A stretch of DNA of 64,000 nucleotides from Nitrospira japonica (GTDB lineage Bacteria > Nitrospirota > Nitrospiria > Nitrospirales > Nitrospiraceae), in NCBI RefSeq assembly GCF_900169565.1, contig NZ_LT828648.1, positions 2,888,501 to 2,952,500 on the forward strand. The letters are read 5' to 3'. Below, piece by piece: positions 9,776 to 41,969 of the stretch. Position numbers and translations under genes: made by a program. The notes beneath the pieces were generated by a model. It was given only the letters and a program-made list of their open reading frames with translations, was not told where the DNA came from and did not search any database. Position 1 is the stretch's first letter. Each line of letters starts with the position of its first letter.

Positions 9776-9873
9776 CGGATCACCTTTCGGGCCTTTTCGC
9801 ACGAGGCCTGTTCACGGGAACCGCCCATCGCGAAACTCGTCTGACCGCTCGTCGTGCGCACAGGTGAAGTGGT

Positions 9874-16729: not shown

Positions 16730-17923
16730 TCATAGACCGATCATGATCAACTCGAACTTGGCGTTGTAGCCGATCGATGGAGCGGCGTTGGGATCACTGA
16801 TGCGCGTGGAAATAGTGGACGATCCCGGACCGACGGCCAGATAGAACCCGCTGACTGTTTGGATCGTATACGAGCAGTTGGGTGGTTGCTCGACGATCTT
16901 GAATTTTTCCCATGCCTGAACTTGGTGTGCATCCGTATGGAGGTTGTCGCCGCTCGCGAGCCCTCCACCATTCACGGCCGTCACATAATTTCCACTGGAG
17001 GTCTGCAAAGCGTATGTCCCGTCGTTCTGCTTGATCAATTTGAATCTTGATCCCACTTGCAACCCGCTAAAGGCCGTCATGGCCTGACTCGTCCGTCCAC
17101 CTCCACCCAGTGCCGTGAGATAGCTGACAAAATCCCCCTTGCCAGGGACCATGCCGGTTCCGGTCGGCCGGATGGCATATTGATAGCCCGATCCCAGATC
17201 GCCGCATTTTAGGAAATAATAATACTCCCAGGTTGAAGCTTTCGTCGCATCGGTATGGAAAGCATCGTTCGCCTTTCCGCCGCCTCCGAGGGCGGTGAGA
17301 AAGTGCCCATCGTAGGTTTTCATGGTATAGGTGCCAGCCGCGCTCGGGCCGTCCACTCGAAAGAGCGCAATATCCGACTGAGGCGTTTGCAATTCCGTTT
17401 GCACGGGTTGCGTGGCGTTGGGCGGTCCACCAAGCCCGCCCACGGCGCTCACGTAGTATCCGCCGCTCGTCTGAATTGTCGTGAAATCTGGTTGAACAGA
17501 CGCCAGCCTGAACCTCTGATTCGGTCCGAGTACTGAAGGCACGGTGATGACGGCATCGATACTATGGTGTCCCCCGTCCCGCGCAGTAAAGGGAGTGCTC
17601 TGCAAGTACGACCGGATGGCAAACTCTCCCGGAAGGGTGCCGAACGCAGGCGGGTTCGGCGGCACGCTCGGAGTCATCTGTTTGAACTCGAGACCAGGTT
17701 GCAGAACTCTGGGAGCCAACCCACGCTCTTGCACGTCTCCGGCCGGCGGTTCGTTCGGGAGTGCGATGGGCGGCGTCGCTTCCACCGTCGGACTTGGCTC
17801 ATTAATCACCGGGGGTGGGTCGTCGGCGAAATTCACTGCCACGGTCAGCCCAGAGGCGACAGTCGCCCATGCGACAGCCATGCATAATTGTCGTAATCTC
17901 GAAGGGGTTTGATGAAATCGCAT
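16730..17923 (-). CDS. Exported fascin-like beta-trefoil protein with N-terminal QERG motif
   Basis: A 397-residue protein with a leader (1-33), an acidic Pro-rich spacer (34-62) and the motif GDVQERGLA (Arg67-Gly68). About 300 residues of repeated fascin-type trefoil follow, with units such as YYVSAVGGLGG, HFLTALGGGG, SYLTALGGGG and NYVTAVNGGG, often followed by HTDA and a W-E-(K/Y)-F/Y segment. Fascin-like folds in bacteria often serve as carbohydrate- or surface-binding modules. It is related to the lipoprotein at 21162-22394. AAGGAGGA precedes the start. It is the last gene of the minus-strand exported-protein block. Confidence 0.82.
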   Translation of the reverse strand: MRFHQTPSRLRQLCMAVAWATVASGLTVAVNFADDPPPVINEPSPTVEATPPIALPNEPPAGDVQERGLAPRVLQPGLEFKQMTPSVPPNPPAFGTLPGEFAIRSYLQSTPFTARDGGHHSIDAVITVPSVLGPNQRFRLASVQPDFTTIQTSGGYYVSAVGGLGGPPNATQPVQTELQTPQSDIALFRVDGPSAAGTYTMKTYDGHFLTALGGGGKANDAFHTDATKASTWEYYYFLKCGDLGSGYQYAIRPTGTGMVPGKGDFVSYLTALGGGGRTSQAMTAFSGLQVGSRFKLIKQNDGTYALQTSSGNYVTAVNGGGLASGDNLHTDAHQVQAWEKFKIVEQPPNCSYTIQTVSGFYLAVGPGSSTISTRISDPNAAPSIGYNAKFELIMIGL

Positions 17924-18014
17924 GGCAGTTCCTCCTTCATCTCATAAGTCACGGCCCGGACGCGTTCATGCCTCAATGGGTAGTCGCAAGGGATTCGTAT
18001 GAAAGGCTCATCGA

Positions 18015-19412
18015 CTACGGCGTGGTGCCATCCGTCGGATCAAACGGACTCGGTTGCACAATTTCAGGTTCTTCTACTTGGTCTTTCTCAACCCCCCGGC
18101 TCATCACGGCCATGTTGGTGCCGGTCATCGCTCCCGTCGCTGCCACAAGACCTGACGAGACCTGGCAGGTGAATTCACGCGACGTACCGGGTGGGAGTAG
18201 GCCAAAAAAACTGGCGGTATTGCCAGAAATAGGTAGGGACTGCACCTGTGAGCCATTCGCCGTCGTGGTTCTCATCGTGAATCCGGTGAGTTGGGGCGGT
18301 CCAAACTTTGTCGCGGTTTGGTTCTTATCGAGGACGCACATGACGGTTTGCGTCTGACCGGGTTCGCACACGGCGCCTTCTTCGACACCGACGACGTTGA
18401 GCGGACCCACGACATTTCCTCCGCTGGGGTTGAAACAGGCGACCACCATCGTTCCGCGTGCGGAGCTACCGCTCCAGCGCAGGCGGGTGTTACCCGTCAG
18501 TGCGGCATCATTCATTCCCATCTTCTGGAGAATCCATCCGCGGAAATTATAGACATCCGTGAACGTGGCTTCACCGGTTGGGGTCTTACAATCGCTTACC
18601 GTCCCTTGCGAGGCAATCCCCCGGACTGTCGCCCGGCCGTACTCGACCGTGACGAATCCTGATCCGCTGTCGCCTTCACACAACGATGCATTGGCTGCCG
18701 CCGCAGTGATATAGAACTTCGGCGCGAAACTGTCCGGCCCGATAGGTGCTCGGAAAATGGCGAACTGTCCCGCCGGTGTATTGAGGTTGTGACTGAAGTT
18801 GGCCACGGTTCCCACGACCCCTTGGCGGCGCGAATCTCTTGGCAAACCGACGGTCTGAAGATAGGGGGTAATCGAGAAGGGCTGAGTCACTCTAATCAGC
18901 GCGATGTCGTTGAGTTGATCTGAGCTGCTCGATGAATACTGCTCATGGCTGTAGATTCCGCCTGAGCCGGAACCCGCCTGGCGAGTCTCTGATCGGCTCT
19001 GCCCGGTGTATGGATCGGTCCGGGTGTAGGTGACGGTGGCGCCGCTGATCTGCACGCAATGCGCAGCGGTCAAGACCCAGCGTGGATCGAGGAGGACGCC
19101 TTTGCAGGTGAGTCTCGACTGGACACTCACGACCCAGGGATACCTGTAGTCGGGTTCGAATTTTCCTCCCGTAGGCGGCAACACGATCGGCGTTGGGGCG
19201 CTCGGTGCCGTTGGCTGAGCCGTTTTTGACGGTACTCTCCCCGTATCAAGCTGTGCCCGGCTCACCGCGCGTTCTTGGACCGCGTTCGGATCACCCGCCG
19301 ATGGACTTGAAGAAGACGGCTGCCCAACGCAGCCGCTCGCAAGGCCGGTGATCACGATCACCGCGGATAGATACGATTCGATGCTCCGGTTCCTGCGCGG
19401 AATCGAGATCAT
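18015..19412 (-). CDS. Trypsin-like serine protease lipoprotein with two R-G/A motifs
   Basis: The chosen start (ATG 19412, AAGGAGG 7 nt upstream) gives a lipoprotein signal ending LASGC. An alternative ATG at 19454 also has AGGAG. A VQERA motif (Arg48) precedes the S1 domain. The catalytic triad is His118 (TAAHC), Asp169 (NDIALI) and Ser249 (CEGDSGSG). Six residues before the catalytic Ser is Ser243, not Asp, so specificity should be chymotrypsin- or elastase-like rather than tryptic. A beta-rich C-terminal extension of about 170 residues ends with VMSRGVEKD and an acidic tail. It probably sits at the outer membrane or cell surface. Confidence 0.88.
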   Translation of the reverse strand: MISIPRRNRSIESYLSAVIVITGLASGCVGQPSSSSPSAGDPNAVQERAVSRAQLDTGRVPSKTAQPTAPSAPTPIVLPPTGGKFEPDYRYPWVVSVQSRLTCKGVLLDPRWVLTAAHCVQISGATVTYTRTDPYTGQSRSETRQAGSGSGGIYSHEQYSSSSSDQLNDIALIRVTQPFSITPYLQTVGLPRDSRRQGVVGTVANFSHNLNTPAGQFAIFRAPIGPDSFAPKFYITAAAANASLCEGDSGSGFVTVEYGRATVRGIASQGTVSDCKTPTGEATFTDVYNFRGWILQKMGMNDAALTGNTRLRWSGSSARGTMVVACFNPSGGNVVGPLNVVGVEEGAVCEPGQTQTVMCVLDKNQTATKFGPPQLTGFTMRTTTANGSQVQSLPISGNTASFFGLLPPGTSREFTCQVSSGLVAATGAMTGTNMAVMSRGVEKDQVEEPEIVQPSPFDPTDGTTP

Positions 19413-19485
19413 GTTAGGCCTCCTTCTCCAACCAGTTGTATTAAGCCGACGCATGGCAATCTCCTGGATGAGGGTTCTGCTCCTC

Positions 19486-20457
19486 TCAGAATTGATCAAA
19501 CGGCATCAGCGCGCGGATGATCGTGTATGTGATCTCAGCTTCGCAACCGCCGCCAGGACTTGGGCGTCCAGGCGGCCCGCCCGTCTCTTCCTTCAAGAAA
19601 AAGTGATACTTGGTGGTCGGTCCCGGCAGCAAGGCTTTGCCCGACTGCTCTATAGGAGGGGTGTAATCGCCGAGAGGATCGCGCTCGTCAAAGTACACAG
19701 ACGGCTCCATGAGATTGGCCCGCGTACTGATCTCCTTGCGGGTCCAAGAGAACTGGGTGATCCCTCTTGCTTCGCCACGACCGAGTTTGAACTTTTGCTC
19801 ATGGATCTGACGGTCAGGCGAACGCCACTTGAACGTGATGTCGCTTTTCCCAACGGTATCGCATCGGTCAACCATGTAGAATCTCAAATCCGTGACAAAG
19901 ACGTCATAGAGCGGGGTGATCGTGAACTCCTTGTTGATCCCGGTTACTTGCCCATTGGGGACCAGTTCCCTCACAGTAATAACGAGCTTCATCGCCCGTG
20001 GCTCCCCATTCCCTTCAACATCGCGGTACGAGAGGGTCAGGCCGCTGGTGGAACTATAGGTTCGTTTCAGGATCTGCGATCGAAACGGAGAGCTATAGAA
20101 GACTTCGACCTCGATGGGCACCGTCACCGGCAGGTTAGGGGGAATGCGGAGGTTCACGGAGATGCTCTTCGAGGTGACCCGCATCGCGTTGCGGATCGCT
20201 GTTAAACTTGGCGTCGGCGCGCTAAACTTCGGATCGGCCAGTTGAAGCGTGCCCCCCGGCTTCACAAGCCCCGGCAGAAGTCCTCGTTCCTGAATGTCGG
20301 CACCCTCCGCCGGCGGAGGCGACTCTTCGGATATCGTGGGGGCGGTGTCCGGGCTCGCCGGTTCTTCGGCGAAGGCACAGAGCGGTAGCCAGAATACGAT
20401 CGCCCATGTCAGGGTCAGGGCACAAATGGCGTCACGATACGGAACTGATTTCGTCAT
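19486..20457 (-). CDS. Exported hypothetical protein with QERG motif
   Basis: A 323-residue product with a signal peptide (about 1-30), an acidic Pro/Glu spacer and the motif ADIQERGLLPG (Arg58-Gly59). A beta-rich domain of about 250 residues with unknown function follows (NLRIPPNLPVTVPIEVEVFY, MKLVITVRELVPNG). It has few Cys residues and no catalytic motif I can name. GGGAGG lies just upstream of the ATG at 20457; a longer frame upstream has no such site. It lies between the trypsin-like protease and a Cys-containing RRGVE protein on the same strand. Confidence 0.75.
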   Translation of the reverse strand: MTKSVPYRDAICALTLTWAIVFWLPLCAFAEEPASPDTAPTISEESPPPAEGADIQERGLLPGLVKPGGTLQLADPKFSAPTPSLTAIRNAMRVTSKSISVNLRIPPNLPVTVPIEVEVFYSSPFRSQILKRTYSSTSGLTLSYRDVEGNGEPRAMKLVITVRELVPNGQVTGINKEFTITPLYDVFVTDLRFYMVDRCDTVGKSDITFKWRSPDRQIHEQKFKLGRGEARGITQFSWTRKEISTRANLMEPSVYFDERDPLGDYTPPIEQSGKALLPGPTTKYHFFLKEETGGPPGRPSPGGGCEAEITYTIIRALMPFDQF

Positions 20458-20585
20458 ACACACCTCCCAAGTGCCTGAGCGTCTCACGGTCCCAGACCGA
20501 CAGGAGCAGATCAGCATGCCATGCGTCGGCGCGTCGTTTGACGCCCCGAACACCATGTCACTCACCCAGAACGCAAGCCGGATGA

Positions 20586-21050
20586 TCAGGGCTTCTTGCC
20601 GCCACCTTCTCCCTGCGCAGCCAATTCCTTGACCCAATCAGGAACGGGAGTGGGCTCCCCAGCGGTGTCTTCCGCTTTCGAGGTTTCCTCCACGCCGCGC
20701 CGTTGAACACCGGCCATTCCCGCCTGACTCATCGCATTGCCGGACATGCCCGGCATGACTCTCGTTCCCGCCGGTTTCCGGCAGTTGATGACTTGATTGG
20801 TCGAATTATCGACGGTGCAGCAGAGCATCGTGTCTCCGCCACAAAAGAGCACGTGCGTATACGGCTTGTTGCCCATGAGGTCTTGTTGCATTTGATCGTT
20901 GCAGGACGCGCCGAAATTGGTATTGAGGTCTTTGGTCGTGCAACTTTCCGGCGTGCTCTTTTTGGGCTTGGCAAATACCCCGGACGGCAATACGATGCCG
21001 AGGACCAATAGGCCGGTGGCGACGGAGAGAATCAGGCGATGGTGTTTCAT
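20586..21050 (-). CDS. Small exported Cys-containing protein with C-terminal RRGVE motif
   Basis: A 154-residue protein with a signal peptide (1-27, cut near FAKP) and six Cys residues between 37 and 90 (CTTKD, GASCND, FCGGD, LCCT, NCRK), suggesting disulfides. After a Met/Gly-rich linker comes AGVQRRGVEE (Arg118-Gly119) and an acidic 35-residue tail. AAGGAGCGTT precedes the ATG at 21050; the longer frame upstream lacks a leader. Its layout matches the small proteins at 23084 and 24487 (leader, Cys module, Pro linker, RRGVE, acidic tail), though the Cys modules are not alike. Confidence 0.8.
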   Translation of the reverse strand: MKHHRLILSVATGLLVLGIVLPSGVFAKPKKSTPESCTTKDLNTNFGASCNDQMQQDLMGNKPYTHVLFCGGDTMLCCTVDNSTNQVINCRKPAGTRVMPGMSGNAMSQAGMAGVQRRGVEETSKAEDTAGEPTPVPDWVKELAAQGEGGGKKP

Positions 21051-21161
21051 AACGCTCCTTATCGATGGTGAGGATCGAATGGATTCGCCGAGTTCGTTTC
21101 GTTCATGACGGATGACCTGTGTCCAATGGATCTCCGGTATCGCGCTCACCTCCTTGGTGAG

Positions 21162-22394
21162 TTACTGGATAATAGCCGGCGATGCCAGGCCGAAGACGAC
21201 CAGTTGGAATTTTTCATTGGCGGACGGCGCCCCGTCGCGACGCGTGGTCAGTAAGGTGACGCCGGATGAATCCTTGAATATCCCGGAAAAGAAACCGCTC
21301 GAAGTCTGAATCGCATAGGTGCAATTGCCTTGATCGATGATCCGGAATTTCTCCCATGCCTGAACCTGCGTAGCGTCGGTGTGGAAAATGGGAGCGGAGC
21401 CGCCGACGCAAGGACCTCCGAAAAGCCCCCCACAGTCCGGCGTGTAATATTTCCTATCGTATTTCTCGACCTGCCCGCCGCCGCCGAGGGCGGTGAGGTA
21501 GGTCCGGCCATTCGCGGTTTGCAGGGCGTACGTGCCATCGCTCTGGCGGAACAGCTTGAATTTCATTTCCGCTTCGGCCGGCCTCGCGCTCAGGCCGAAT
21601 CCCGGTTTTCCTTCCCAATTGTTGGAAGCCAAGAATTCTCCGTCTGCCGCCATGATCGCGTATTCATAGCCGGACCCAGGATCGCCGCACTTCACGATCC
21701 TAAACTGCTCCCAAGCTTGGATCTGTTTGGCGTCAGTGTGCAACGCATCTTGATACTTCCCTCCGGCGCCGACAGCCGTGAGAAAGTTTCCTTTGATCGT
21801 CCCGATACCATAATAGGTAGGAGGATGGCCGCTCATGTACACCAGCCGGAAACGTTCCCAATCCCTGGGTTGAGTGGCATCGGTATGGATCGCGTTTGCG
21901 GTCATGCCACCACCGTTCACGGCAGTCACATAGTTGCCGTTTGCTGTTTGAAAGGTCTTGTCGTAAGGCGAAGGCGGGGACGCGATGGCAAACTTGAATT
22001 TCTCCCATGCGCCGGCCGACGTGGCGCCTGTAATGACGGTGGGATCGCCGATCCGTCCTCCGCCGTTGATCGCGGTGAGGTAATAGCCTTTGGATGTCCT
22101 GAAGGCAAACTCACCTGGGTACGTACTGGTCAGACCAGTGGACAGCGTGCCAAGGACGGCGGTCTTGCCCTCCAGCACGGCGGGATTGAGCCGGGTTATT
22201 CCGCGTTCCTGAACCTCACCGGTCTCTGCGGGCACCTCGGTAATCGCGGGCTGTTCGTCTGGTATGACGGGAACGTCCATCTGTGAAATGCTCGCCTGTC
22301 CGCGCTCCTTGGGGACCGGTTCGGCAGTGGCGCAGCCGAACGCGAGCAGACAGGCACCGTACAATAACCTGGTCACGAGCGATCTGGTGTTCAT
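21162..22394 (-). CDS. Fascin-like beta-trefoil lipoprotein with QERG motif
   Basis: A 410-residue lipoprotein (lipobox LAFGC, Cys21). An ERG (Arg31) and then GEVQERGIT (Arg64-Gly65) follow in an acidic spacer. The body is two or more beta-trefoil lobes with fascin-type repeats: YYLTAINGGG, NYVTAVNGGG, NFLTAVGAGG, TYLTALGGGG, each followed by HTDA(T/K)Q and W-E-(K/R/Q)-F-R. It is a paralogue of the protein at 16730-17923, which lacks the lipobox. GAGGAGAGGGAA precedes the ATG at 22394. It is probably a surface-anchored binding protein; ligand unknown. Confidence 0.83.
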   Translation of the reverse strand: MNTRSLVTRLLYGACLLAFGCATAEPVPKERGQASISQMDVPVIPDEQPAITEVPAETGEVQERGITRLNPAVLEGKTAVLGTLSTGLTSTYPGEFAFRTSKGYYLTAINGGGRIGDPTVITGATSAGAWEKFKFAIASPPSPYDKTFQTANGNYVTAVNGGGMTANAIHTDATQPRDWERFRLVYMSGHPPTYYGIGTIKGNFLTAVGAGGKYQDALHTDAKQIQAWEQFRIVKCGDPGSGYEYAIMAADGEFLASNNWEGKPGFGLSARPAEAEMKFKLFRQSDGTYALQTANGRTYLTALGGGGQVEKYDRKYYTPDCGGLFGGPCVGGSAPIFHTDATQVQAWEKFRIIDQGNCTYAIQTSSGFFSGIFKDSSGVTLLTTRRDGAPSANEKFQLVVFGLASPAIIQ

Positions 22395-22478
22395 TCCCTC
22401 TCCTCCTCTCACGCCGACGAAATCCATTCGTTAGACCGAGTTGCTCCCGGTCGCTTCCTCCGAATACGCTCCGAATCA

Positions 22479-23087
22479 TTACCGTCTCTGCATCGGCGTG
22501 CACTCGCAACTTGTACTGCCGGAAGGACACGAGCCCTGACAAAATGGAGTCAACAATTGGCATTCCTGCTGGTTATGGCATTCGCATTTCGTGAATGTGA
22601 GAGGCACCTGATAGCTGCATAGATTCGGTGGCAGGGGAGGCATAGCGCCGCGGCTCATCGGGGTGAATTCACAATGGCTGCTGCCCGGAGGGCACGAGTT
22701 GGGAAACAAGGCCGTGAGCGCCTGGCATTCCGTCTGGCTGAAACATTTGCACTGCGTGAGCATCCAGGTCTCCTGATGGCAGAGTTGAGCGGGTGGTTCG
22801 GACGGAGGGAGCGGCTGCTTCCGTTGGAAATCCTTCTTGAATTGTCCGAAGTCGCCCTTCCCAAGGCCTCGCTCTTGCACATCATCGGGCGCCCCCTCTG
22901 TCGTCGATGGCGGAGGACTGATCTCCAGCTGTTGCGAGGGGGCCGACACTTCTTCTTGCCTTGGCGAGATCGGAGTGACGGGCTCATCCGCCCCTTGTGC
23001 TACCGCGCCGGCGAATAATGTCATCGGTATCGCCATGACCAGAAGGTTACGCATTAGTCTCCGAGCAATTTGAGCATTCATCATCAC
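22479..23087 (-). CDS. Exported protein with two Cys-rich repeats, each ending in an M-x-R-(G/R) motif
   Basis: A 202-residue protein with a signal peptide (about 1-32), an acidic Pro spacer and DDVQERGLG (Arg73-Gly74). Two tandem Cys-rich repeats of about 50 residues follow, aligned as TxCxCxxQxECQxLT, then (P/G)SCPxGSxxCE(F/C)TPM. Repeat 1 is followed by MSRGAMPP; repeat 2 ends the protein at TPMQRR. The motif therefore marks the edge of each module. The start overlaps the stop of the upstream gene by 4 bp; three consecutive ATG codons leave the exact start open. Confidence 0.8.
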   Translation of the reverse strand: MMMNAQIARRLMRNLLVMAIPMTLFAGAVAQGADEPVTPISPRQEEVSAPSQQLEISPPPSTTEGAPDDVQERGLGKGDFGQFKKDFQRKQPLPPSEPPAQLCHQETWMLTQCKCFSQTECQALTALFPNSCPPGSSHCEFTPMSRGAMPPLPPNLCSYQVPLTFTKCECHNQQECQLLTPFCQGSCPSGSTSCECTPMQRR

Positions 23088-23521
23088 TTATTCGTTTCCT
23101 CCTGGGGTGGCGCAGTCGACTCCTCACCCTCGACGCCCCGCCGCATGATCGGAGCGTTCATCCCGGCTTTTGGGACAGGGGTTGTTCGCGGAGGAGGATT
23201 TGTCGGCGCGACCTGAAGCTGGCCCCCGTGAACTGCGCCCATATTGGCTTTTGGATTCTTGGGAGTCTGAAAGCTCTCGATTTGCTCACAATCTTTTCCG
23301 CCCTGCGCATTGGGAGCGCAGCACATGTAGTCTCCGCTACCGTTGCACTCGACCCACTGTCCAGGCTTATTCAGACAATGGAAGGCTCCGTCAGGAACAC
23401 CCCCTTTGCATTTATCTGGATTTTTTATGGGTTCCGCTTTGGCCGGTATGGTGTGACTCAGGCACATATACATCAGAAGCATCGCCACACCGCCGCATCG
23501 GATCCAGCATCTGCTCATCAT
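23084..23521 (-). CDS. Small exported Cys-containing protein with C-terminal RRGVE motif
   Basis: A 145-residue protein with a leader (about 1-29), a Cys module (DKCKGG, HCLNK, ECNGSGDYMCCAP, DCEQ), a Pro-rich linker and PIMRRGVEGEE (Arg128-Gly129) followed by a 16-residue acidic tail. AGAGGA lies 7-8 nt upstream of the tandem ATGs at 23521/23518. It overlaps the next gene by 4 bp, so the pair is translationally coupled. The function of the Cys module is unknown; it resembles a small carbohydrate-binding or structural disulfide domain only in general outline. Confidence 0.78.
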   Translation of the reverse strand: MMSRCWIRCGGVAMLLMYMCLSHTIPAKAEPIKNPDKCKGGVPDGAFHCLNKPGQWVECNGSGDYMCCAPNAQGGKDCEQIESFQTPKNPKANMGAVHGGQLQVAPTNPPPRTTPVPKAGMNAPIMRRGVEGEESTAPPQEETNK

Positions 23522-23661
23522 ACGCACCGTCCTCTCTGGCCTTTGGCCTGTTGAAATCTTCGGTTCTCTGGAAAACAATCAGGTCCCCTCATGATTTGCG
23601 GTTTCACTCCTAGACTGGGAGCCAGCCAAGATTTATCTCTCACAGTCCCAGCCCACAGATG

Positions 23662-24381
23662 TCACCTGCCTTCCTTCTCCGAAGATAGAGGTTTCTCAAT
23701 CTCGACCCCGCGACGCTGCAGCACCGGCGCATTTGACTTAGGGAGAACAGAGGGGCGGACGTTTCCTAATTGAGGCTTTTCCTCGAAACAACCGCCGGCG
23801 CAGCCGACGGGTCCTTGCGAGGGAACACACCCATGCACTGCGCTAAATACACACTGTCCCGCGGGGCTAACACACGCGCATACAGGTGACTCTCCAGGAG
23901 CGCCCGTCCCTTGTCGAATGGCGCGCTCTTGCACGTCTCCGGGACCAGTCATGGGGCCCTTTTCTTCTCGCGGCACCGGCGCCGTCTCTTGCGCGCCAGT
24001 ATCTTTCTCCGCCTCACGGTCCCTGGCAGGGGATGGAGTCTGGGAGGGAAGCTCGCCCGCCAACAGCCGCGGAGCGAGCGGCACACTCACAAGACCACCA
24101 GTCAATAAAGCCGTGGTTATTATTGAGATCGTGATCGATCGCACGGCGATCCTCCTAGGCTGGAGAGTAACCACTGGATCTAAAGAAGTTCCGCGTTCTC
24201 GAATCTCGCCTGTAGTGGGGGGCGGAGCATCCTGCTCGGGCGTAAAGGGGACTGACTCCGTGGTCTGAGCTATACTCGTTGGTTGTTCGGCCGTTGCCAC
24301 TCCTGCGAGAGCGATAAGAACCAAGAAGATTCCTGCAGCGATCAAAGTTGAGAAGCTATGAAGTCTCGGTTGCATGGACAT
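23662..24381 (-). CDS. Composite exported protein: two leader-plus-motif units fused in frame
   Basis: The 239-residue frame holds two exported proteins in series. Unit 1 (residues 1-79) has a signal peptide (STLIAAGIFLVLIALAGVATA), an acidic spacer and GEIRERGTS, but then no domain. Unit 2 begins at residue 80 with a second leader (SITISIITTALLTGGLVS), then GDVQERAIR, a Cys-rich module (VCACVSPAGQC...GCAGGCFEE) and a C-terminal VLQRRGVEIE with an acidic tail. A perfect AGGAGG stands 6 nt before a GTG at 24144, so unit 2 probably initiates on its own. Either a deletion fused two genes, or both a long and a short product are made. Confidence 0.72.
   Translation of the reverse strand: MSMQPRLHSFSTLIAAGIFLVLIALAGVATAEQPTSIAQTTESVPFTPEQDAPPPTTGEIRERGTSLDPVVTLQPRRIAVRSITISIITTALLTGGLVSVPLAPRLLAGELPSQTPSPARDREAEKDTGAQETAPVPREEKGPMTGPGDVQERAIRQGTGAPGESPVCACVSPAGQCVFSAVHGCVPSQGPVGCAGGCFEEKPQLGNVRPSVLPKSNAPVLQRRGVEIEKPLSSEKEGR
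24142..24156 (-). promoter_or_regulatory. Internal Shine-Dalgarno and GTG start inside the composite gene
   Basis: On the minus strand AGGAGG (24156-24151) is followed by six bases and then GTG (24144-24142), in frame with the surrounding reading frame and at the beginning of a second signal peptide. Spacing is optimal. It decides that the downstream half can be made as a separate 160-residue exported protein. Confidence 0.75.
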
Positions 24382-24486: not shown

Positions 24487-24942
24487 TTACTTAGACTCAG
24501 GCCCTGTTCCGGATGGATTAGCCATCCCGCCATCCGGCTGCTCACCCTCGACTCCGCGACGCTGAATCGTTCCGGCCGGCGCGGGCACTCGACTGGGGGG
24601 AGGAGTTTTCGGCTGCAGCTGCGGCAGCTCCCCTAGACTCTGAGCGGCGGAAGTACACGTCGGCAACGGGTAATTCGGCAAGCATTTCTGGCAATTGGCC
24701 AATTTCCCTGGGGTGAATGTTTTCCCCCCATCCACGGTGAACCTACAGTCCTTGCCATTCGACATGCAGTTTGTCGTCATTGCCCAAGTCAGCTCCTTCG
24801 CGCTGCCACTGGAAGCCGTACAGGAACACTTGCAATGGGTAGTACTGAACTCCGGAGGGAGTGCGACACTGACCGCTGCCGTTCCCACCAGCATGGTGAG
24901 GCCCAGGGTCCCGACCACGAACACTTTCACGATCGCTCTCAT
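24487..24942 (-). CDS. Small exported Cys-containing protein with C-terminal RRGVE motif
   Basis: A 151-residue protein with a signal peptide (about 1-28), a Cys module (HCKCSCTAS, NCMSNGKDC, NCQKCLP, TCTSA), a Pro-rich linker and GTIQRRGVEGE followed by a 20-residue acidic/polar tail. AAGGAGGAG lies directly upstream of the ATG at 24942, while the longer frame starts with unrelated sequence. The layout is the same as in the proteins at 20586 and 23084. No enzymatic motif is seen. Confidence 0.78.
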   Translation of the reverse strand: MRAIVKVFVVGTLGLTMLVGTAAVSVALPPEFSTTHCKCSCTASSGSAKELTWAMTTNCMSNGKDCRFTVDGGKTFTPGKLANCQKCLPNYPLPTCTSAAQSLGELPQLQPKTPPPSRVPAPAGTIQRRGVEGEQPDGGMANPSGTGPESK

Positions 24943-25049
24943 CGCTCTCCTCCTTGTGATTCTTGGTTCTATTGCGGTTGATACTCGCCTTTCTCTATGA
25001 CCTCTTTCATTCACATGACGCTCTTTTAGCCGTTATGCGAGCATGCAGA

Positions 25050-25820
25050 TCACTTCCCATCCTTCACACGGGCTATCAGATCCTTCAATCCTTTTACATC
25101 CAGGGCTCCTGGCACGAGTTCCGTCCCGACAATGAAACCTGGCGTACCCGAAATACCGAGTTCCCGCGCCAAGGCACGGTTCCGGTCGATCACCGTCTGC
25201 CATTCCGGGTTAGCCATATCGGTATCGAGACGCTTGGCATCCAAACCAACCTCGCCGGCCACGCGCAGCAATTCATCCCTCGTCATCTCATTCTTAGTGG
25301 CCAGCAGCGCTTCGTGAAAGGCCTGATGCTTTCCCTGCGCATTGGCGGAGAGGGCGGCTTTCGCGGCCAGTTCGGACGGTTCACCTAAGATGGGGAAGTC
25401 CTTGTACACCACCCGCACGCTTGGGTCTTCTTTCTGGAGTTGGGTCACGGCACCGGCGGCTCGCTTGCAAAATCCGCAACGATAGTCAAAGAATTCGATG
25501 AGCGTGACCTGACCGTTGGGATTGCCGCTTACAGGCGAACTGGCATCATGCAGGAGTTCCTTCTGCCGATTGGCGAGGGCCACCTTTTGCCGCGCTCGCT
25601 CTGCGGTCTCTCGCTTGGTTTCCAATTCTTGGAGCGACTGCTCGATCACTTCCGGATGCGCGCGAATGTATTGTTCGATTGCCTTGTCGAGCGTCTGTTG
25701 AGAGGCAGGGTTGGGTACAGCGGATGAATCGTTCAAGGAGGTACATCCGGTGACTGCGACTGCAAGCAATAGCAATGTGAGACGGCAAAACGGCGATACC
25801 TGTGCGCACACTTGTGTCAT
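25050..25820 (-). CDS. DsbA-family thiol oxidoreductase lipoprotein
   Basis: A 256-residue protein with a lipobox (AVAVTGC) and a helical linker of about 60 residues rich in charged residues (KAIEQYIRAHPEVIEQSLQE). A DsbA/thioredoxin domain follows, with the active-site pair C-G-F-C in FDYRCGFCKR and the cis-Pro loop GTPGF. It resembles Com1/DsbA-like proteins with an N-terminal helical region. It would form or isomerise disulfides outside the inner membrane, and the neighbouring Cys-rich exported proteins are obvious clients. AGGAG precedes the ATG at 25820, which overlaps the upstream stop by 4 bp. Confidence 0.92.
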   Translation of the reverse strand: MTQVCAQVSPFCRLTLLLLAVAVTGCTSLNDSSAVPNPASQQTLDKAIEQYIRAHPEVIEQSLQELETKRETAERARQKVALANRQKELLHDASSPVSGNPNGQVTLIEFFDYRCGFCKRAAGAVTQLQKEDPSVRVVYKDFPILGEPSELAAKAALSANAQGKHQAFHEALLATKNEMTRDELLRVAGEVGLDAKRLDTDMANPEWQTVIDRNRALARELGISGTPGFIVGTELVPGALDVKGLKDLIARVKDGK

Positions 25821-26152
25821 GGATGAAGCTCCTGTTGTGTAGATGGATCGGCGACCGTTGGAATAGGACATTGTACGTCTGACGTAGTCGTGGACAACCG
25901 CGCAAACCTGCTCAGCATGGTCCGGGGGCGTGCGGTCGATGGACGCGCATCGTCGCAATCGGGATTCTCGTCCGGCTGCTGCGGCCGTATCGTGCCGCTC
26001 AGTGCATCTTCCGTGTACGGTGGGGCTGGAGAGGCGGGTGAAAGATTCTGCAATGACGATTGCGGCGCATCAACCCTCTGCTCTGCCGCATGCGCGACGG
26101 ATGGACCCACCGCGAGCCCGACGGTCATCATGACCACCAACAGCCCTTGCAT
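25817..26152 (-). CDS. Small exported hypothetical protein coupled to the DsbA-like gene
   Basis: A 111-residue product with a clear signal peptide (LLVVMMTVGLAVGPSVAHA) and a Pro/Ser/Asp-rich mature part without recognisable domain; two Cys are present (PDCDDA, VQCPIP). GGAGGG precedes the ATG at 26152. The stop overlaps the start of the DsbA-like gene as ATGA, so the two are translationally coupled. The mature part looks disordered. It has an IRP-type Arg-rich stretch but no clear copy of the R-G motif. Confidence 0.6.
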   Translation of the reverse strand: MQGLLVVMMTVGLAVGPSVAHAAEQRVDAPQSSLQNLSPASPAPPYTEDALSGTIRPQQPDENPDCDDARPSTARPRTMLSRFARLSTTTSDVQCPIPTVADPSTQQELHP

Positions 26153-26730
26153 CAATCCCTCCGTTTTCTGATCCGGCGATTCCGATCGCATCTGTGCGGT
26201 CAGTCGAATGGGCGATCCGGAAGGTTCAACGGAAAAAGACGAGTGGGGAAGGAGATGGACTGGGGGGTCGTCGGACCGTCTGACTCTCAAGGCATCCCTC
26301 CATGCCGCCGAGCCGCTCGACCGGTCGAACAACGAGCGCTGTACGTAATCGGGGAGTGCAGGATATGCGAGAACGACTCGTCCGGTCAATCACGGAATGG
26401 CAAATACCAGCTATTTTTCAAAGTGGCGAGAGGGCTGGTCACCGGTAACGAGCAGTCGGCACATAAGTGCCATTTTTCTCTGCAGATGATGGTCTCTCAG
26501 CGGTGTGGTTCTGCCGGGGGCTTGTGTCGGCTACAAGGAATTGGCGGCAGGAACCCGGCTTTAGGCTCGGACAGTCACATGTTGAGAAGTTCCTCGTTTC
26601 GGTGGAGCCCCCAACGTCATCCAGCGCACGTGCATAAATGGCCAGATGGTCCTGGAAAAGCGTTGTGACCGGCACGAAACGGTTACATGTCTACCTAAAA
26701 CAGCGGCGATTCGATCCGCCGCCGCTACTC
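26153..26730 (-). other. 578-bp stretch without a supported gene
   Basis: Several frames are open on both strands, but none has a ribosome site, a leader or plausible composition. The part next to 26152 probably holds the promoter of the small exported protein and DsbA-like gene. No hairpin or repeat stands out. Confidence 0.4.
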
Positions 26731-27198
26731 TCAGAATCGTCCGACCGCCTTCTGTGCCAGTGCCTTTAACTTGTCTTCATCACCCGCCGTTTCATGGAGC
26801 GACAGTTTGACTGTGGCGCTACCTTTTTTGATGAAAATATCTACATAGTCGAGTCCGTGCATTCCACGATTCATGAACGCGTCATCGCCAAGTCCCTTTA
26901 ACTGGACCGGCTTTTTGGCTAACTTGCGGGCGCGATCGATGCCGCTGGCTGGAAACACCCAGATTTCAAAAGCATCCTTCCCGTTCGCAAACTCATAGTT
27001 GCACCAGGCTGCTTCGCCCTCCTGGCCGCTCTTGGGCGCCTCTTTCAATTTGCCGATAATTTGTTCCACCTCGGCAATTGTAACGATCTTGCAGGGCTCG
27101 ATTGCAGGAGGTGCGGCAAGCACCAATGAACTGACCCAGATGCCCATCATGAAGACAGATACAACAAAAATGCTCAAGTAATGAACCACGCGAATCAT
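26731..27198 (-). CDS. Small exported hypothetical protein
   Basis: A 155-residue protein with a signal peptide (about 1-30, cut near LAAPP). The folded domain of about 120 residues has a Cys at each end of its first half (EPCKIVT and AWCNYEF), separated by a helix (EVEQIIGKLKEAP). A beta-alpha region follows (FEIWVFPASG, VDIFIKKGSATVKLSLHE). The pattern resembles DUF3558-like exported proteins in outline (Cys, helix with IG, W-C-x-Y), but I cannot assign it firmly. GAGGAGG precedes the ATG at 27198. Divergent from a 27-residue small protein on the plus strand. Confidence 0.72.
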   Translation of the reverse strand: MIRVVHYLSIFVVSVFMMGIWVSSLVLAAPPAIEPCKIVTIAEVEQIIGKLKEAPKSGQEGEAAWCNYEFANGKDAFEIWVFPASGIDRARKLAKKPVQLKGLGDDAFMNRGMHGLDYVDIFIKKGSATVKLSLHETAGDEDKLKALAQKAVGRF

Positions 27199-27358
27199 GC
27201 GGCCTCCTCTCATGGCTGTTTTCCTTCCTATTGGGTTGATTGAGAGTCTGATGATGGGAGAGTTTCCCTGGCTTTGCGATCACGTTGAACTTCCAGCCCC
27301 CTCCTATCGACATACTGGACATGAAAGCCGTTCAGCCTGGTCTCCAAGGAGGTGTTTC

Positions 27359-27442
27359 ATGTGGATCATCACCGTGTCGCTCGCTTTATTAGTCATCCTG
27401 GCTATTGCTTCCGCGTTAGTGAAGCCCAGGGAAGCGGAGTAA
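27359..27442 (+). CDS. 27-residue single-pass membrane microprotein
   Basis: The frame begins ATG-TGG-ATC at 27359 and ends with TAA at 27442. A textbook AAGGAGGTG lies 5 nt upstream. The product is one hydrophobic helix (ITVSLALLVILAIASALV) with a short basic-acidic tail (KPREAE). It is the only plus-strand gene candidate within the 31 kb minus-strand block, and could be a regulatory membrane microprotein. Coding status rests on the ribosome site and composition. Confidence 0.55.
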   Translation: MWIITVSLALLVILAIASALVKPREAE

Positions 27443-27455
27443 GTCCGGCCAGAAT

Positions 27456-29288
27456 TCATTTCGCTATCTTCTCCATCGGTTCATCCGTCGACCGTGTAAC
27501 GACACCGAATGAAGGTTGGGGTGGACGAGGACTGGGCGAAGGAGCCACCATTGGAGCCGAAACCGGTGAACCGTCGCCCATGCGATCCTCAACGACCGGC
27601 TGAGATTGCTTGCCTAGAAAATTGGTCACGATCACGTGCAACGTTCCGGGATTCATGTCGCGACACTCATCGTCCTTGGAAGGTGTCGCCGGCGATGTCT
27701 CATCGCAAGTTTGAACCGGTCTCGGCGAGGTGGATGGTCGCACTGAAGTCTGCTTGGTCCCGCCAGAGTGGGGAGCGAATGGCGCCGGCTGCGGCCCCAA
27801 CCGTAAGAGTCCTCCGTTCGGGAGCAGGAAGCGGCTGGGTGCGAGAACGGGAGAGGTGCCGCGCGCGCGCACGTCACTTGTCTGCGCAATCGCATAGCGC
27901 GCCCGGCCGTCGGGCTCCAGGAGCAGCAACAGCTGACCGTTTTGCGACTCGGATGGCAGCCAGAGAAGCGCTGTTCCCGTAATGCTGCCATCGTAGACGG
28001 CCGGGTTGGAGGCCACGGTGAAACTCGGAGGGCCGCCATCCGGTTGGATGAGTTGCAGTTGATCGTGCTCGTCCACCACTGCGTATTCCCCGGCCGGCAC
28101 CGTCACCGTGCCTTTCTTGGTTGCGACGAACCGTGCTTGGCTGTCGAGAATCAGGGTCGGAGGAACGGCCGGCTCCGCCTCTCCTTCGACGCCGCGCGGA
28201 ACGACGCCGAATGCGCGCTGGGGCGACGGGGTAGGTGCTGGCTGGGTCGCAGTCTTCTGCGTGGTGGACGGCACATCGATTTTGACCACCGTCCTCTGCG
28301 GCAAGCCACCGAGCTGAATCTGAAAGTTTGAGTTGGGGTAGGGAATTGGAACCGGGCTCGAAGGGGGCGGGGTCTTCACTACCAGAGGACTGGTCGAGAT
28401 GGCGTTCTGTGTTCTAGTCGATCCCGTATTCAACGGCTGCACCTGGGGCATGGCCGGCTTGGTTTGAGGAATCGGCGTTCCGGAGACGACGGACCCGCTC
28501 GTCCGAGGGGTTTGCTGGAGTGGAGGCACCTTTAAAGACGGAGGTGTACCCGAAGGGACGGATTCGGTCGGTGGATAGACCTCCTGGCGATCGTCAGGGA
28601 AGATGATCGTGATGGTGCCGTCGGGATAAATGCGAATACGTGTCTTGTCCGGAAGCTGGACTTCCGCAGCCTTGCTTCCCGAGTCGGGGTGCCCTTGGTT
28701 TGGCAGGAGGGTTGAGAGCGAGGCCCCGGAAGGGAATATGGTCGTCGAATGGCCGATGGCTCCGACACCGTTGGTGTAGATCACCGTCCCATCCGGCAGT
28801 GTCGTCACGGTATCCCCAGATGGAGAAATGAGTGTATTCGTTCCATCGGGTTGCGTGACGGATTGTCCCATTCCGTTCGGACGCTCCGTCACCCGGCCGG
28901 TCGTCGGAAGCGAGATGCGTAGGTTAACCTCGAGGCCGATCGTGATCTTGGTGCCATCTGGCAGTCGATTCGTCGCCCCTCCGTCGGGGTTCGTCGTGAT
29001 CGTGCCGCCGCGGGGCAGTTGCGTATGCGTCGTTCCATCGGGATAGACCGTGTAGGTCACCCCTTCCGGCAATCTCGTAATCAACGTCCCATCCGGCTTT
29101 TTCGTCACGGTGGACCCGCCCGGCAGTTGCGACCGGATGGATCCGTCAGCGAGTTTGGTTTTGATGATCGTCGTTGCGGAGGCTTCCGGCAGAAGCCCGT
29201 TCCATGTTTGGCAGGCCAGTAGGATGATCATGAGTGACAGGCGGGAGAGTGCATGAATCAGTCTAGATGGTGGGAATAGATGCATCAT
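27456..29288 (-). CDS. Exported TCP10-like beta-repeat protein with R-G motifs
   Basis: After the leader (to about residue 40) come some ten short beta repeats of 16-18 residues with the pattern T-x-x-x-P-D-G-T-x-x-T-x-L-P-x-G (residues about 45-230), ending IYPDGTITIIFPDDRQ. This resembles the G-box of the TCP10/CPAP C-terminal domain, which forms a long single-layer beta-sheet. A Pro/Ser/Thr-rich linker follows, then GVVPRGVEGE, a beta domain (VPAGEYAVVDEHDQLQL) related to the end of the protein at 31996, and VRARGTSPV. The start is uncertain: ATGs at 29288 and 29285 follow GGAGG closely, and an ATG at 29309 overlaps the previous stop. Confidence 0.78.
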   Translation of the reverse strand: MMHLFPPSRLIHALSRLSLMIILLACQTWNGLLPEASATTIIKTKLADGSIRSQLPGGSTVTKKPDGTLITRLPEGVTYTVYPDGTTHTQLPRGGTITTNPDGGATNRLPDGTKITIGLEVNLRISLPTTGRVTERPNGMGQSVTQPDGTNTLISPSGDTVTTLPDGTVIYTNGVGAIGHSTTIFPSGASLSTLLPNQGHPDSGSKAAEVQLPDKTRIRIYPDGTITIIFPDDRQEVYPPTESVPSGTPPSLKVPPLQQTPRTSGSVVSGTPIPQTKPAMPQVQPLNTGSTRTQNAISTSPLVVKTPPPSSPVPIPYPNSNFQIQLGGLPQRTVVKIDVPSTTQKTATQPAPTPSPQRAFGVVPRGVEGEAEPAVPPTLILDSQARFVATKKGTVTVPAGEYAVVDEHDQLQLIQPDGGPPSFTVASNPAVYDGSITGTALLWLPSESQNGQLLLLLEPDGRARYAIAQTSDVRARGTSPVLAPSRFLLPNGGLLRLGPQPAPFAPHSGGTKQTSVRPSTSPRPVQTCDETSPATPSKDDECRDMNPGTLHVIVTNFLGKQSQPVVEDRMGDGSPVSAPMVAPSPSPRPPQPSFGVVTRSTDEPMEKIAK

Positions 29289-29305
29289 GGCCTCCGTGGG
29301 ACCCG

Positions 29306-30484
29306 TCATTTTGGCTGCTCCGCCGATTCGTCGGCGGCTTCCACTCCGCGAGGGATCACGAATGCTCCGGGTGGCGGAGAAGATGCGGCGCCGCTGCCCG
29401 GCCCGTCCAGATTACGTTGCGTACCCAACGGCTGCCCGCCATTCCCTGGTTGAGGCGTGCTCAACGTCGATCCGGGCGGCGGTCCTGTCATGGTCGTGCC
29501 GGAGGGGCTTCCCGGAATGACGACCGCACCCGTCTGGTTCGGTACGGGCACTGAAGCGCCAGTCAGAGGCTTGACCGGAGGAGGAGCCGACGTGAACGAA
29601 TCGGAGGCAGCTGGAAGCTCGAGCGTGATCTCCTGCTTCGTCAACGCGACGGCAAGATCGGTGGTCCCTCGCTGCCCCGACGCGTAGATACTGAATGACA
29701 TCTGCCAGCGCAGATCGGTATTGACCGGCACGTCGACGTACGGGTCGATGGTCGCACGCGGAGTCGGGTTAGGGTTCGGTCCGGAAATTCTGAGGTCGGC
29801 CACCTGATCGATGACGATTCTCGCCTCCAGTGCGGAATGCTGCAGATCCTTCCCTGAGGATTGTCCGGCGATCTCACCAACCACCCGAACCCGCATCTTC
29901 TCTGCTGCCCTTGCCCCAGGTTTGGAGATGCGCAACGTAGATTGCGCGTTGAATTGCTGTCGCCAGCTTCCTGATCCCTTGTCTTGAGGCGGTCCGGAAA
30001 AACGGAGGCCGAGAACCTGTTTCTCGTTCTGCGACAAGGGGACGGACAACCGGATCAATGTCCCGTAGCCGCGCATGGCACCTTGGGGAGTCCCTGGTGA
30101 GCCGGCTCGTGTGCGTATGTCCAGCGGCTCACTGTCATCGATGCGGGCGTATCGCTGGTCGATATTGGACAGCCAGCGCATCGCATAGCCATATTTACCG
30201 GTACCTAAGAATCCCTTGTCCTGAACTGGTTCCCTATCAAGGGCGTCTCGCCACACGATGGTGGCACCGTTCCAGTATCCTATGGCAGGGTTGGACCGCT
30301 CGCCTCTTACCGTCGATCCTGCCATGGAATAGGCAGCGGGAGTGGCATACTGCTGCGGCACCTGGAACTCAACGGCAGCGGCCAGACAGACGACAAGACC
30401 GGTCCAGATGACAACGGACAAACAGACAAACATACGGAGCAAACGGGGAAGCCGCGCAGTCTGCCGCGACGGTGGAAGCGTCAT
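29306..30484 (-). CDS. Exported hypothetical protein with C-terminal RGVE motif
   Basis: A 392-residue protein with a leader (about 12-38). A beta-rich domain of about 250 residues follows (IGYWNGATIVWRD, LIRLSVPLSQNEKQVLGLRF, DLRWQMSFSIYASGQRG), which could bind or scaffold but matches nothing I know. A Pro/Gly/Thr-rich linker of about 80 residues leads to FVIPRGVEAADE and a 12-residue acidic tail. The ATG at 30484 overlaps the previous gene's stop as ATGA and has GGAGGG upstream; the much longer frame to 30931 is out-of-frame overlap with the previous gene. Confidence 0.75.
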   Translation of the reverse strand: MTLPPSRQTARLPRLLRMFVCLSVVIWTGLVVCLAAAVEFQVPQQYATPAAYSMAGSTVRGERSNPAIGYWNGATIVWRDALDREPVQDKGFLGTGKYGYAMRWLSNIDQRYARIDDSEPLDIRTRAGSPGTPQGAMRGYGTLIRLSVPLSQNEKQVLGLRFSGPPQDKGSGSWRQQFNAQSTLRISKPGARAAEKMRVRVVGEIAGQSSGKDLQHSALEARIVIDQVADLRISGPNPNPTPRATIDPYVDVPVNTDLRWQMSFSIYASGQRGTTDLAVALTKQEITLELPAASDSFTSAPPPVKPLTGASVPVPNQTGAVVIPGSPSGTTMTGPPPGSTLSTPQPGNGGQPLGTQRNLDGPGSGAASSPPPGAFVIPRGVEAADESAEQPK

Positions 30485-31686
30485 GGTGTTTTGCCCTCCG
30501 GTCGAAAAGAATGATCCGCCGGTTGACCGTCCTCGGTTTCGTCGGGGCCTTCGACGCCGCGCATACGAATCATTCCCGAGGACGAACTCGATCCTTGTGA
30601 CGGAGGGGCGGTGACGGCCGGTGGACGGACCATCGGGGCGGCGCTTCCCTGCGGCGCGGCCTGTACGGCCGATGACGGTAAGGGAACCGTCTGCGGGATG
30701 GGGGATGCTTGCTTCTTGGATTGTGTCGGTTGGGTCAAAAATAATTTGAATTGTACGGGGAAACTCCAGGGACCCGGCACCGCTTTGCCGCTGGCCCGCG
30801 CACGGATCTCCCAACGTCCCGCATTTCCCCGCGTGACTGCCTGGTCCACCTGGTAGCCCTGAAGCAATTTCGACGTCTCCACGGCAAAAACATTCGGGAC
30901 GTTGGATTGGTTGGCGGGCGCATCGAGCCACCTGAATTCCAGTTCCGTCATCTGTGTTGCCCCGGTTTTTGGCGCATCCGCCTTGAGGAAGAGTTGGCCC
31001 TGCTGCACGAGGGCATTCCGTACGGGATTGGTAATCGTGAACATGTCGTCGGTCGGGCCCAGGACCCCTGGGATCCGTTTAGTCCCCGCAACCGGCGAAT
31101 TCACTCGAAGATATTGCGCATGCAATCGTTGCCGATCGGCAGGGGCAATCATGTTCTCGGTTTTGGGAAAGTTGAGTGTCTGCAACTCCGGAACGACGAC
31201 CCGCAAGTCCTCCGGGATCGATACACCGACGATGCGACAGCTGGCTGCCTCGGGCTGCAACCACGGATCTTGTTTGCAGCGCCCGGTCCAGAACATGAAA
31301 ATGCGGCCGCCCGGCGCTCGGACGGGAATGAACGGTTCGTATCCTGTCATGGCGATTGACTCGGATGCATTCGGCTTTTGGGGGTCGGTCTCGGAGGGAC
31401 TCCATGAGGCTTCCAACCGGTATTGAAGCTGAGCGCCGGGCTTTTGTGGGCTGGTGCAGATCCCGTCGAACGAGTACTTCGCGGTTCCCTTCGGACTACT
31501 GAAAAACTGTGATTGTCCCGTGAATCGTGGTGGAGTGCATGTCGTGGGAATCGGTGGTTCGTCTGGCGTGAGCTGGAGTTCTTTGCCCAAAGGGAAAGAA
31601 CGAATCGGGGATCCGACCATGCCGGCCAAGAAAACGGCCATGCCGATGGCGACGAATCTTCGCCGAGATGACGACCGAAAACGCAT
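30481..31686 (-). CDS. DPW-family exported protein with C-terminal RGVE motif
   Basis: A 401-residue protein with a leader (about 1-30). The N-terminal domain shared by five paralogues in this block has Y-x-F-x-G-x-C, a W-x-P-S-E segment and the signature C-K-Q-D-P-W-L...C. The C-terminal Ig-like domain (about 210-320: MTELEFRWLD...GRWEIRARAS) resembles those of the proteins at 33590 and 35016. It ends with IRMRGVEGPDE and a 26-residue acidic tail. GGAAGGAGG gives ATG at 31686 a 7-nt spacing (the ATG at 31692 is too close). Function unknown, probably surface binding. Confidence 0.78.
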   Translation of the reverse strand: MRFRSSSRRRFVAIGMAVFLAGMVGSPIRSFPLGKELQLTPDEPPIPTTCTPPRFTGQSQFFSSPKGTAKYSFDGICTSPQKPGAQLQYRLEASWSPSETDPQKPNASESIAMTGYEPFIPVRAPGGRIFMFWTGRCKQDPWLQPEAASCRIVGVSIPEDLRVVVPELQTLNFPKTENMIAPADRQRLHAQYLRVNSPVAGTKRIPGVLGPTDDMFTITNPVRNALVQQGQLFLKADAPKTGATQMTELEFRWLDAPANQSNVPNVFAVETSKLLQGYQVDQAVTRGNAGRWEIRARASGKAVPGPWSFPVQFKLFLTQPTQSKKQASPIPQTVPLPSSAVQAAPQGSAAPMVRPPAVTAPPSQGSSSSSGMIRMRGVEGPDETEDGQPADHSFRPEGKTP

Positions 31687-31757
31687 GGTCATGCCTCCTT
31701 CCGATATGCGGACTCATCTGTGCTCATGACCATTTCCTTCTGAGCAGTGTGGATCAG

Positions 31758-31967
31758 TCATGGCCTCTTGTCCGTCTCGATGGGCTGATCCGAAGTCTCA
31801 TGGCGTTCCGTGCCGGGTCCCAATCGTCTGTCCGATGGAGAAGTTTCTGAAGGTCTGCGCGGCGTGTCGGTCGCCATCGCCTGAATCGGCAAGAACGTCA
31901 TCGTTGGGAGGAGTATCGCGAGGAGCATCTGCATGGACTGGATGGCGCGACGAGATGACGGTGTCAT
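31758..31967 (-). CDS. Small exported tail-like peptide
   Basis: A 69-residue product with a signal peptide (SMQMLLAILLPTMTFLPIQAMA) and a mature part of about 36 residues made of Arg, Pro, Ser, Glu and Thr, ending PIETDKRP. That ending closely resembles the acidic tail of the protein at 33590 (PAETEKRP). It has no folded domain. GGAGG lies 6 nt before the ATG at 31967. It sits 28 bp after the stop of the preceding gene. It may be a stand-alone copy of the tail that follows the RGVE motif elsewhere, or a degenerate gene. Confidence 0.5.
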   Translation of the reverse strand: MTPSSRRAIQSMQMLLAILLPTMTFLPIQAMATDTPRRPSETSPSDRRLGPGTERHETSDQPIETDKRP

Positions 31968-31995
31968 GAATGCCTCCATCGGATGGGCTCTTGCC

Positions 31996-33474: not shown

Positions 33475-33589
33475 TGGATTCCTCCAAGAATCGCAGGTGC
33501 TTTATCGGTCGTTCCTTTGAGATTCCTTTTATGGGTGCCGGCGTTTCTCTGATCGACGTTGGTACGAAAACGACATGATCACCGGTTCT

Positions 33590-34795: not shown

Positions 34796-35015
34796 GGGAG
34801 TTCCTTCCACATCCTGGTCCTTCGCTCGTAAGTCGTTCGTTGTCAATCACTGGTTCAGTGTCCTGATCTGGGAAACACTTACTGGTCCAAACTATTGGGC
34901 GAACAGTCACGCGAGATACCACGCCTCTCCCCCAATCGACTACGGTGAAGTGCATTGACTGACTAGCTAGACCCAGTGTGATGAGCCATTCTCCTCAGAG
35001 GACGTTCGCTCTTCC

Positions 35016-36053: not shown

Positions 36054-36063
36054 GCCCTCCTTT

Positions 36064-37608: not shown

Positions 37609-37844
37609 GATTCCTTGCAACCGCCGCGAAGCAGATTGCTCAACTTCCGTCTGAGGGATCTCTGTGGTGGCGGACGAAATGATCATGACGTCTCTTGGTT
37701 GGATGAGAAGTCAGAAAGATCGAAGCACACTCCCTTGCCGGCCTGATAATTGCCTTTGCTGATTCGAACAGGGTCTTTATCAATTGTGCCGTTCATATTG
37801 ACCACCAGATCTCTAATTCATGTGACCGTTGTCGACGGTACAAG

Positions 37845-38855: not shown

Positions 38856-38891
38856 GCGTGCACCTCAGGGTTCAGGATTCCTTGCCCTTCA

Positions 38892-40397: not shown

Positions 40398-40438
40398 CGT
40401 TCATCTCCCTTCTCAGTCTACTGACTCGCTTGTACCGT

Positions 40439-41907: not shown

Positions 41908-41969
41908 GACGTGCTTCCTTTCTTGTGGAGCCGTGCCCACATCGCCTCTGATGCTTCGCCTGTCCCTCG

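Follow-up and report, generated by a model that had tools for sequence, protein, structure and literature searches.

A fused two-leader reading frame in a Nitrospira japonica island of exported proteins with a shared, putative protease site

The frame and the block around it

The window analysed here (64,000 nucleotides of the Nitrospira japonica genome) carries a block of genes for exported proteins, and within this block lies a single open frame of 239 codons (24381-23662(-), 239 aa). Along the frame are found, in this order, a leader, the motif IRERG, the hexamer AGGAGG, a GTG codon, a second leader, the motif VQERA, six cysteines, the motif RRGVE and a short acidic tail (Table 1). The presence of two leader-motif units in one open frame, as given in the preliminary description, is thus confirmed in the sequence. 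The AGGAGG (24156-24151) is separated from the GTG (24144-24142) by six bases. The residues TSLDPVV, which follow IRERG, bear a loose likeness to members of the fascin-like family.

Table 1. Positions of the features of the long frame, the block and the flanking caspase homologues (an arrow marks a predicted cut; SD, duplex energy of the ribosome site in kcal/mol)
Feature	Position	Strand	Basis or remark
Leader 1, residues 1-31 of the long frame	24289..24381	(-)	Hydrophobic score 3.07
Candidate starts of leader 1	ATG 24381, ATG 24375	(-)	Both poor ribosome sites: SD -0.1 and -3.0
Motif 1, IRERG, predicted cut R↓G	24190..24204	(-)	Sequence
AGGAGG ribosome site of unit 2	24151..24156	(-)	Anti-SD duplex
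Unit 2 (160 aa), predicted to be the real gene, with start at GTG 24144	23662..24144	(-)	G006 homology and ribosome site
Leader 2 (VRSITISIITTALLTGGLVSVPLAPRLLA)	24052..24144 (3' limit about 24052)	(-)	Sequence and G006 match
Motif 2, VQERA, predicted cut R153↓A154	23920..23934	(-)	Sequence, logo
Six-cysteine module	23788..23880	(-)	Sequence; sister modules mostly with even Cys numbers
Motif 3, RRGVE, predicted cut R224↓G225, close to chain end	23701..23715	(-)	Sequence; tail common to G002
Block core: fascin/ricin-like, trypsin-like, M6 and Cys-rich proteins	16730..24381	(-)	
Rest of block, further exported motif proteins	24487..42806	(-)	
Exported motif proteins, examples	25014-24487, 29309-27456, 30484-29306, 31692-30481	(-)	
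Exported motif proteins, more examples	33474-31996, 34846-33590, 40397-38892, 42551-41970	(-)	
DsbA-like exported thiol oxidase, recurrent partner	25050..25958	(-)	PF01323, 1e-26
Exported trypsin-like protein	18015..19499	(-)	VQERA before catalytic domain; SRGVE 26 aa from end
Exported WD40-caspase (C14), candidate protease	44760..47873	(-)	VQRRGNE between WD40 and next domain
Exported caspase (C14)-DUF4384, candidate protease	7523..9802	(-)	[VI]xTR sites in p20-p10 linker

The block is flanked by two exported proteins of the C14 family. No NCBIfam model scored over its cut-off for the 10 block proteins submitted, and no Pfam toxin family did so among the block proteins scanned. Cysteines occur in 38 of the 42 small modules and are even in number in 36 of those 38, these families being related and not independent, and the DsbA-like gene is present in 10 of the 23 loci inspected (11 copies). 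One further exported protein of the window (42806-41970(-)) carries IQERA and shows a weak VgrG-like NCBIfam match below the cut-off. Beside the block, two genes that look integrase-like and D5-helicase-like by eye (54465-55733 and 58445-59902, (-)) are perhaps part of a mobile element.

The probable working start and the proposed origin of the fusion

The strength of each ribosome site was taken as its duplex energy with the anti-Shine-Dalgarno sequence. GTG 24144 reaches -10.2 kcal/mol, against -0.1 for ATG 24381 and -3.0 for ATG 24375; the best starts of 20 other leader-bearing block genes range from -5.8 to -13.5 kcal/mol, and within the long frame only GTG 24144 combines a ribosome site in this range with a leader. 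Among the 6413 internal in-frame start codons of 333 control genes, drawn from 20 stretches of this genome, 7 were equal or better in both ribosome site and leader score, and a site as good as GTG 24144 is expected by chance in about 2% of genes. The ribosome site alone is therefore suggestive, and GTG 24144 becomes convincing because it is homologous to a real gene start in a second genome of the genus (G006). There, the homologue of leader 2 opens a free-standing gene of 331 aa (L004:4757-5752) in which ATG replaces GTG. The two proteins are 51% identical over 90 aa (E 8e-16), and their DNA is alike (75%, 113 bp) from base 2 of the start codon up to where the leader ends.

A search with the whole frame in 99 genomes (its own and relatives) gave matches in only two, namely its own genome and G006, the latter for residues 79-163 alone. 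Full-length orthologues, which the preliminary description, for the case that they lacked an internal ribosome site, had named as the evidence that would speak against its reading, were not found in these 99 genomes; the fusion is therefore local, and the notion of the long frame as one conserved gene was dropped. Nor did 110 leader-plus-motif ORFs from 20 loci contain another genuine succession of leader, motif, ribosome site and leader, the remaining doubled-leader matches being judged by inspection to have over-long or wrong-frame starts. From these data it is highly likely that GTG 24144 is the start codon of the working gene, whose product would have 160 aa. Judged by sequence, unit 2 is very probably a separate gene of 160 aa, and unit 1 is probably a truncated leader-plus-motif remnant whose own ribosome site is poor. 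The start proposed earlier within the frame, together with its ribosome site, is thus supported by the -10.2 kcal/mol value and by the G006 gene that begins at leader 2; the proposal that one gene displays all motif types gives way, unit 2 being most likely a gene in itself and unit 1 a remnant.

Beyond the QER motif, the window and G006 proteins diverge: a domain of family M6 follows in G006, and the six-cysteine module in the window. The DNA of the RRGVE tail resembles, in turn, a stretch of a third genome (G002, L017:14803-14860; 78%, 58 bp), and the shared tail begins at the Gln codon CAG of QRRGVE and runs past the stop. In G006, a 114-bp fragment of a trypsin-like gene (L004:4635-4750), 77% identical to the trypsin gene of the window (E 8e-22), ends immediately upstream of the leader common to both. 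In both genomes, then, leader 2 follows the debris of differing block genes, and the idea of cassettes is supported accordingly. Leader clusters and tail clusters cut across the domain families. The leader of unit 1 groups with six fascin/ricin-like leaders, the direct match to fascin-like leaders being weak (E 2e-4), and the lost domain of unit 1 was perhaps fascin-like. These comparisons support a cassette-like evolution of the block, in which leaders, domains and tails would be exchanged; the loss and fusion of cassettes suggested in the preliminary description find support in leader 2 on another domain in G006, in the G002 tail and in the trypsin debris. Another joining of motif types is seen in two proteins of other genomes (G019, L149:16143-16634; G026, L155:15647-16087), in which RRGVE or RRGIE is followed about 21 residues on by KERS or QERA near the C-terminus.

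The arginine motif and the exported caspase homologues

The motif [VI]xxR↓[GA][VIL] was found close to one or the other end of exported proteins that share no domain, in a form of the [VI]QER[GA] type after the leader and in a form of the RGVE/RGVD type mostly 15-30 residues before the end. The regular expressions were shaped on the window, and relatives then matched them. Under the position rule, 13 of the 23 leader genes between 16700 and 48000 carry the motif, as against 0 of 123 in control stretches, a frequency far beyond chance; a looser pattern is met in 16 of 23 block leader genes versus 9 of 123 controls. The pooled logos of the N-type and C-type motifs give one consensus: Val/Ile at P4, Arg at P1, Gly/Ala at P1' and Val/Ile/Leu at P2'. 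P4 is V/I in 53 of 54 N-type motifs and in 40 of 46 C-type motifs, for which the search pattern made no demand at P4. The flanks are Pro-rich, and the motif columns outscore them in conservation in all nine family/type alignments (means 0.55-0.95 vs 0.38-0.51; families with fewer than four members were left unscored), the weakest contrast being that of the C-type in the trypsin family, with cut fragments included. RERG, QERA and RRGVE, which had been described as separate kinds of motif, thus merge into one, probably a protease site; this pattern makes it likely that the motif is a cleavage (maturation) site.

Both flanking C14 proteins belong to PF00656 (88.4 bits for C14-DUF4384, with a cut-off of 21.4; 69.4 bits, also over the cut-off, for the WD40-C14 locus). 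Among solved chains, metacaspase-1 comes closest to C14-DUF4384 (E 7e-22); the acidic ND and DSC positions align with it and are kept in all 15 orthologues read. By this alignment they would be equivalent to Asp95 and Asp211, the acidic S1 residues of TbMCA2, and the protein would fall into the group C14B, whose enzymes cleave after Arg or Lys (PMC4357240). All 15 orthologues read contain [VI]xxR in the p20-p10 linker of C14-DUF4384; the residue that follows is G/A in 12 of them and Gln in 3 (the sixteenth orthologue, G085, gave no sequence). In 8 of 10 WD40-C14 sequences the stretch that joins WD40 to the following domain carries V/I/M-x-x-R↓G, and the linker R↓G is missing in the other 2. 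These linker sites are positions where such enzymes could process themselves.

At the thresholds applied, C14-DUF4384 was found in 16 of the 99 genomes and WD40-C14 in 13, all of them within the 16 (Fisher 9e-14, uncorrected for the relatedness of genomes). The trypsin-like gene occurs in seven of the 99, of which six have both caspases; the genome of the seventh, G031, is 72% complete. The WD40-caspase is a steadier neighbour of the motif genes than C14-DUF4384, which lies far from them in G003 (about 100 kb), in G048 (about 200 kb) and in G055 (on another contig). The N. japonica genome itself (4.08 Mb) contains 13 C14 matches, 12 of them over the cut-off, so that the enzyme could be another C14. 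On balance we lean modestly towards cleavage of the motif by one of the two island caspases, and the trypsin-like protein is likely a substrate.

Similar motif sets were found around trypsin-like or caspase genes in G006, G002, G003, G055, G031, G090, G019, G049 and G026, sets with fewer members in G048 and G036, and a further set in a named Nitrospira sp. MAG (locus L065). A Myxococcales relative of the trypsin-like gene (L066) had no strict motif nearby, which speaks against a wider spread of the system; the scan of wider relatives for motifs covered L065 and L066 out of 80 loci. At the DNA level, the pattern [DE]VQER[GA] has a mean of 2.38 matches in the 13 genomes with the caspase pair versus 0.62 in the other 86 (p 3e-4), and the reversed control pattern 0.38 versus 0.58. 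All four of its matches in the N. japonica genome fall in the block. The pattern is absent from three of the 13 caspase-pair genomes (G073, G083 and G090); G090 carries VTERG and MRRGVE instead, and the order-level relatives G073 and G083 (L162, L166, L167 and L168) have VxSR/IRSR forms near their caspases. The P2 residue of the motif may thus vary by lineage. The C-type DNA pattern, which matched in 74 of the 99 genomes, was too noisy for a genome count and was not used as a test, and scattered motif matches, such as those in L024 and L156, seem to be chance occurrences or other motif forms and were left out of the counts. In the incomplete genome G031, a motif-rich contig contains a trypsin-like gene with two TGA stops (C18:1113-2519; L012, L023).

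Proposed account, alternatives and known systems

In the account that we propose, a local deletion or recombination brought two units together in the long frame. Its working gene would begin at GTG 24144 with its AGGAGG and yield a 160-aa prepro-protein, which leader 2 would export by the Sec route; the neighbouring DsbA-like enzyme would oxidise the six cysteines, and a C14 caspase-like protease of the island would cleave behind the Arg of VQER↓A and of QRR↓G. This cutting would release a mini-protein of 71 residues with three disulfides (residues 154-224 of the long frame), and the unit 1 remnant would be translated weakly or not at all. With one motif common to most island proteins and to the linkers of both caspases, the island may be a caspase-matured secreted set, whose leaders, domains and tails would be shuffled as cassettes at and between the motif sites. 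For the account as a whole, with its fused units, its start at 24144 and its caspase-matured island, the evidence of sequence weighs slightly in favour. More tentatively, and with a little less assurance than doubt, some Nitrospirota might possess a dedicated caspase maturation, in which a shared MALT1-like site in an island of prepro-proteins doubles as an exchange boundary and the fused frame is a frozen exchange; the secreted set would then consist of disulfide-rich mini-proteins and of lectin-like and protease-like chains. Little is known of what bacterial caspase homologues cut in nature, and the island offers a sequence-defined, testable list of likely substrates encoded beside the proteases. 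If the account is true, bacterial caspases would be tied to secretion and maturation, not to cell death, and the fused frame would illustrate how cassettes get lost and joined.

A true cleavage site could also be served by some other exported Arg-specific enzyme, be it subtilisin/kexin-like, another of the 13 C14 matches or the trypsin-like protein that sits in the block. The number of C14 matches and the position of the trypsin-like gene lend this some weight, but co-occurrence with the block was seen for the two exported caspases, the only enzymes compared, and we consider another enzyme unlikely. In trypsin-like proteases, specificity for Arg goes with Asp at position 189; the trypsin-like protein, which itself bears both motifs, has Ser or Ala, not Asp, at this position before the active Ser in all six sequences aligned, and was rejected as the processing enzyme. 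No C11 homologue was found in the genome by a search in which positive controls were detected, and the search for C25 carries no weight, no control having matched. The motif might instead stay uncut and act as a tag for binding or sorting, by which the exported proteins dock to a shared partner; its shortness, its conservation and its place near chain ends would agree with this. The tags of PEP-CTERM and MYXO-CTERM consist of a motif followed by a transmembrane helix and a basic end. Beyond RGVE, the block proteins end in short stretches that are for the most part acidic or polar, with no hydrophobic tail or basic end of this kind. Although C-terminal sorting tags are known in bacteria (MYXO-CTERM; PMC11980579), the motif here stands at both ends and also inside the protease linkers, in Pro-rich flanks and with Arg followed by a small residue in every case, and a docking tag seems distinctly improbable.

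As to the frame itself, the full 239-aa protein with two leaders might be the working product, either membrane-tethered or twice-processed, since the frame is open throughout and has ATG starts at 24381 and 24375. The ribosome sites of these starts are, however, very weak beside the strong one at 24144, the G006 relative starts at leader 2, and no orthologue of the fused form was found in the 99 genomes, so that we hold a full-length product to be very unlikely. A sequencing or assembly error that joined two genes would account for the fragmentary state of unit 1 and for an arrangement unique among the loci read; but the genome is one contig, 99.96% complete, and like junction debris is present in G006, which leaves such an error hardly credible.

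The window enzymes share with the C14B metacaspases and orthocaspases the caspase family match, the His-Cys dyad and the conserved pocket residues for a basic P1, and differ from them in being exported and in accompanying an island of exported proteins that bear one putative site. Few bacterial substrates are known; the orthocaspase MaOC1 cuts a neighbouring antitoxin (PMC7935541). For the paracaspase MALT1, an aliphatic P4, Arg at P1, nearly always Gly at P1' and a P2 that may be Ser or Pro are described (PMC6207715); the likeness lies in the site residues, the block sites being V/I-x-P/S/R/E-R↓G, whereas Ala is likewise common at P1' in the block. In polymorphic toxin systems a caspase-like peptidase processes an exported toxin within one chain, and these systems also have exported modular proteins, cassette recombination and a processing peptidase of caspase type (PMC3482391). 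In the island, by contrast, the proteases and their presumed targets are encoded by different genes, and the block proteins scanned showed no recognisable toxin domain. As in the MYXO-CTERM and PEP-CTERM systems, many exported proteins of the island share a short signature at the C-terminus, with a protease devoted to it, here a putative one (PMC11980579), but no transmembrane helix or basic tail follows the motif, which is N-terminal too. Metacaspases are abundant in the Nitrospirae (PMC3501461), and among the papers found on Nitrospira and bacterial caspases none describes such a motif island in its title or abstract opening.
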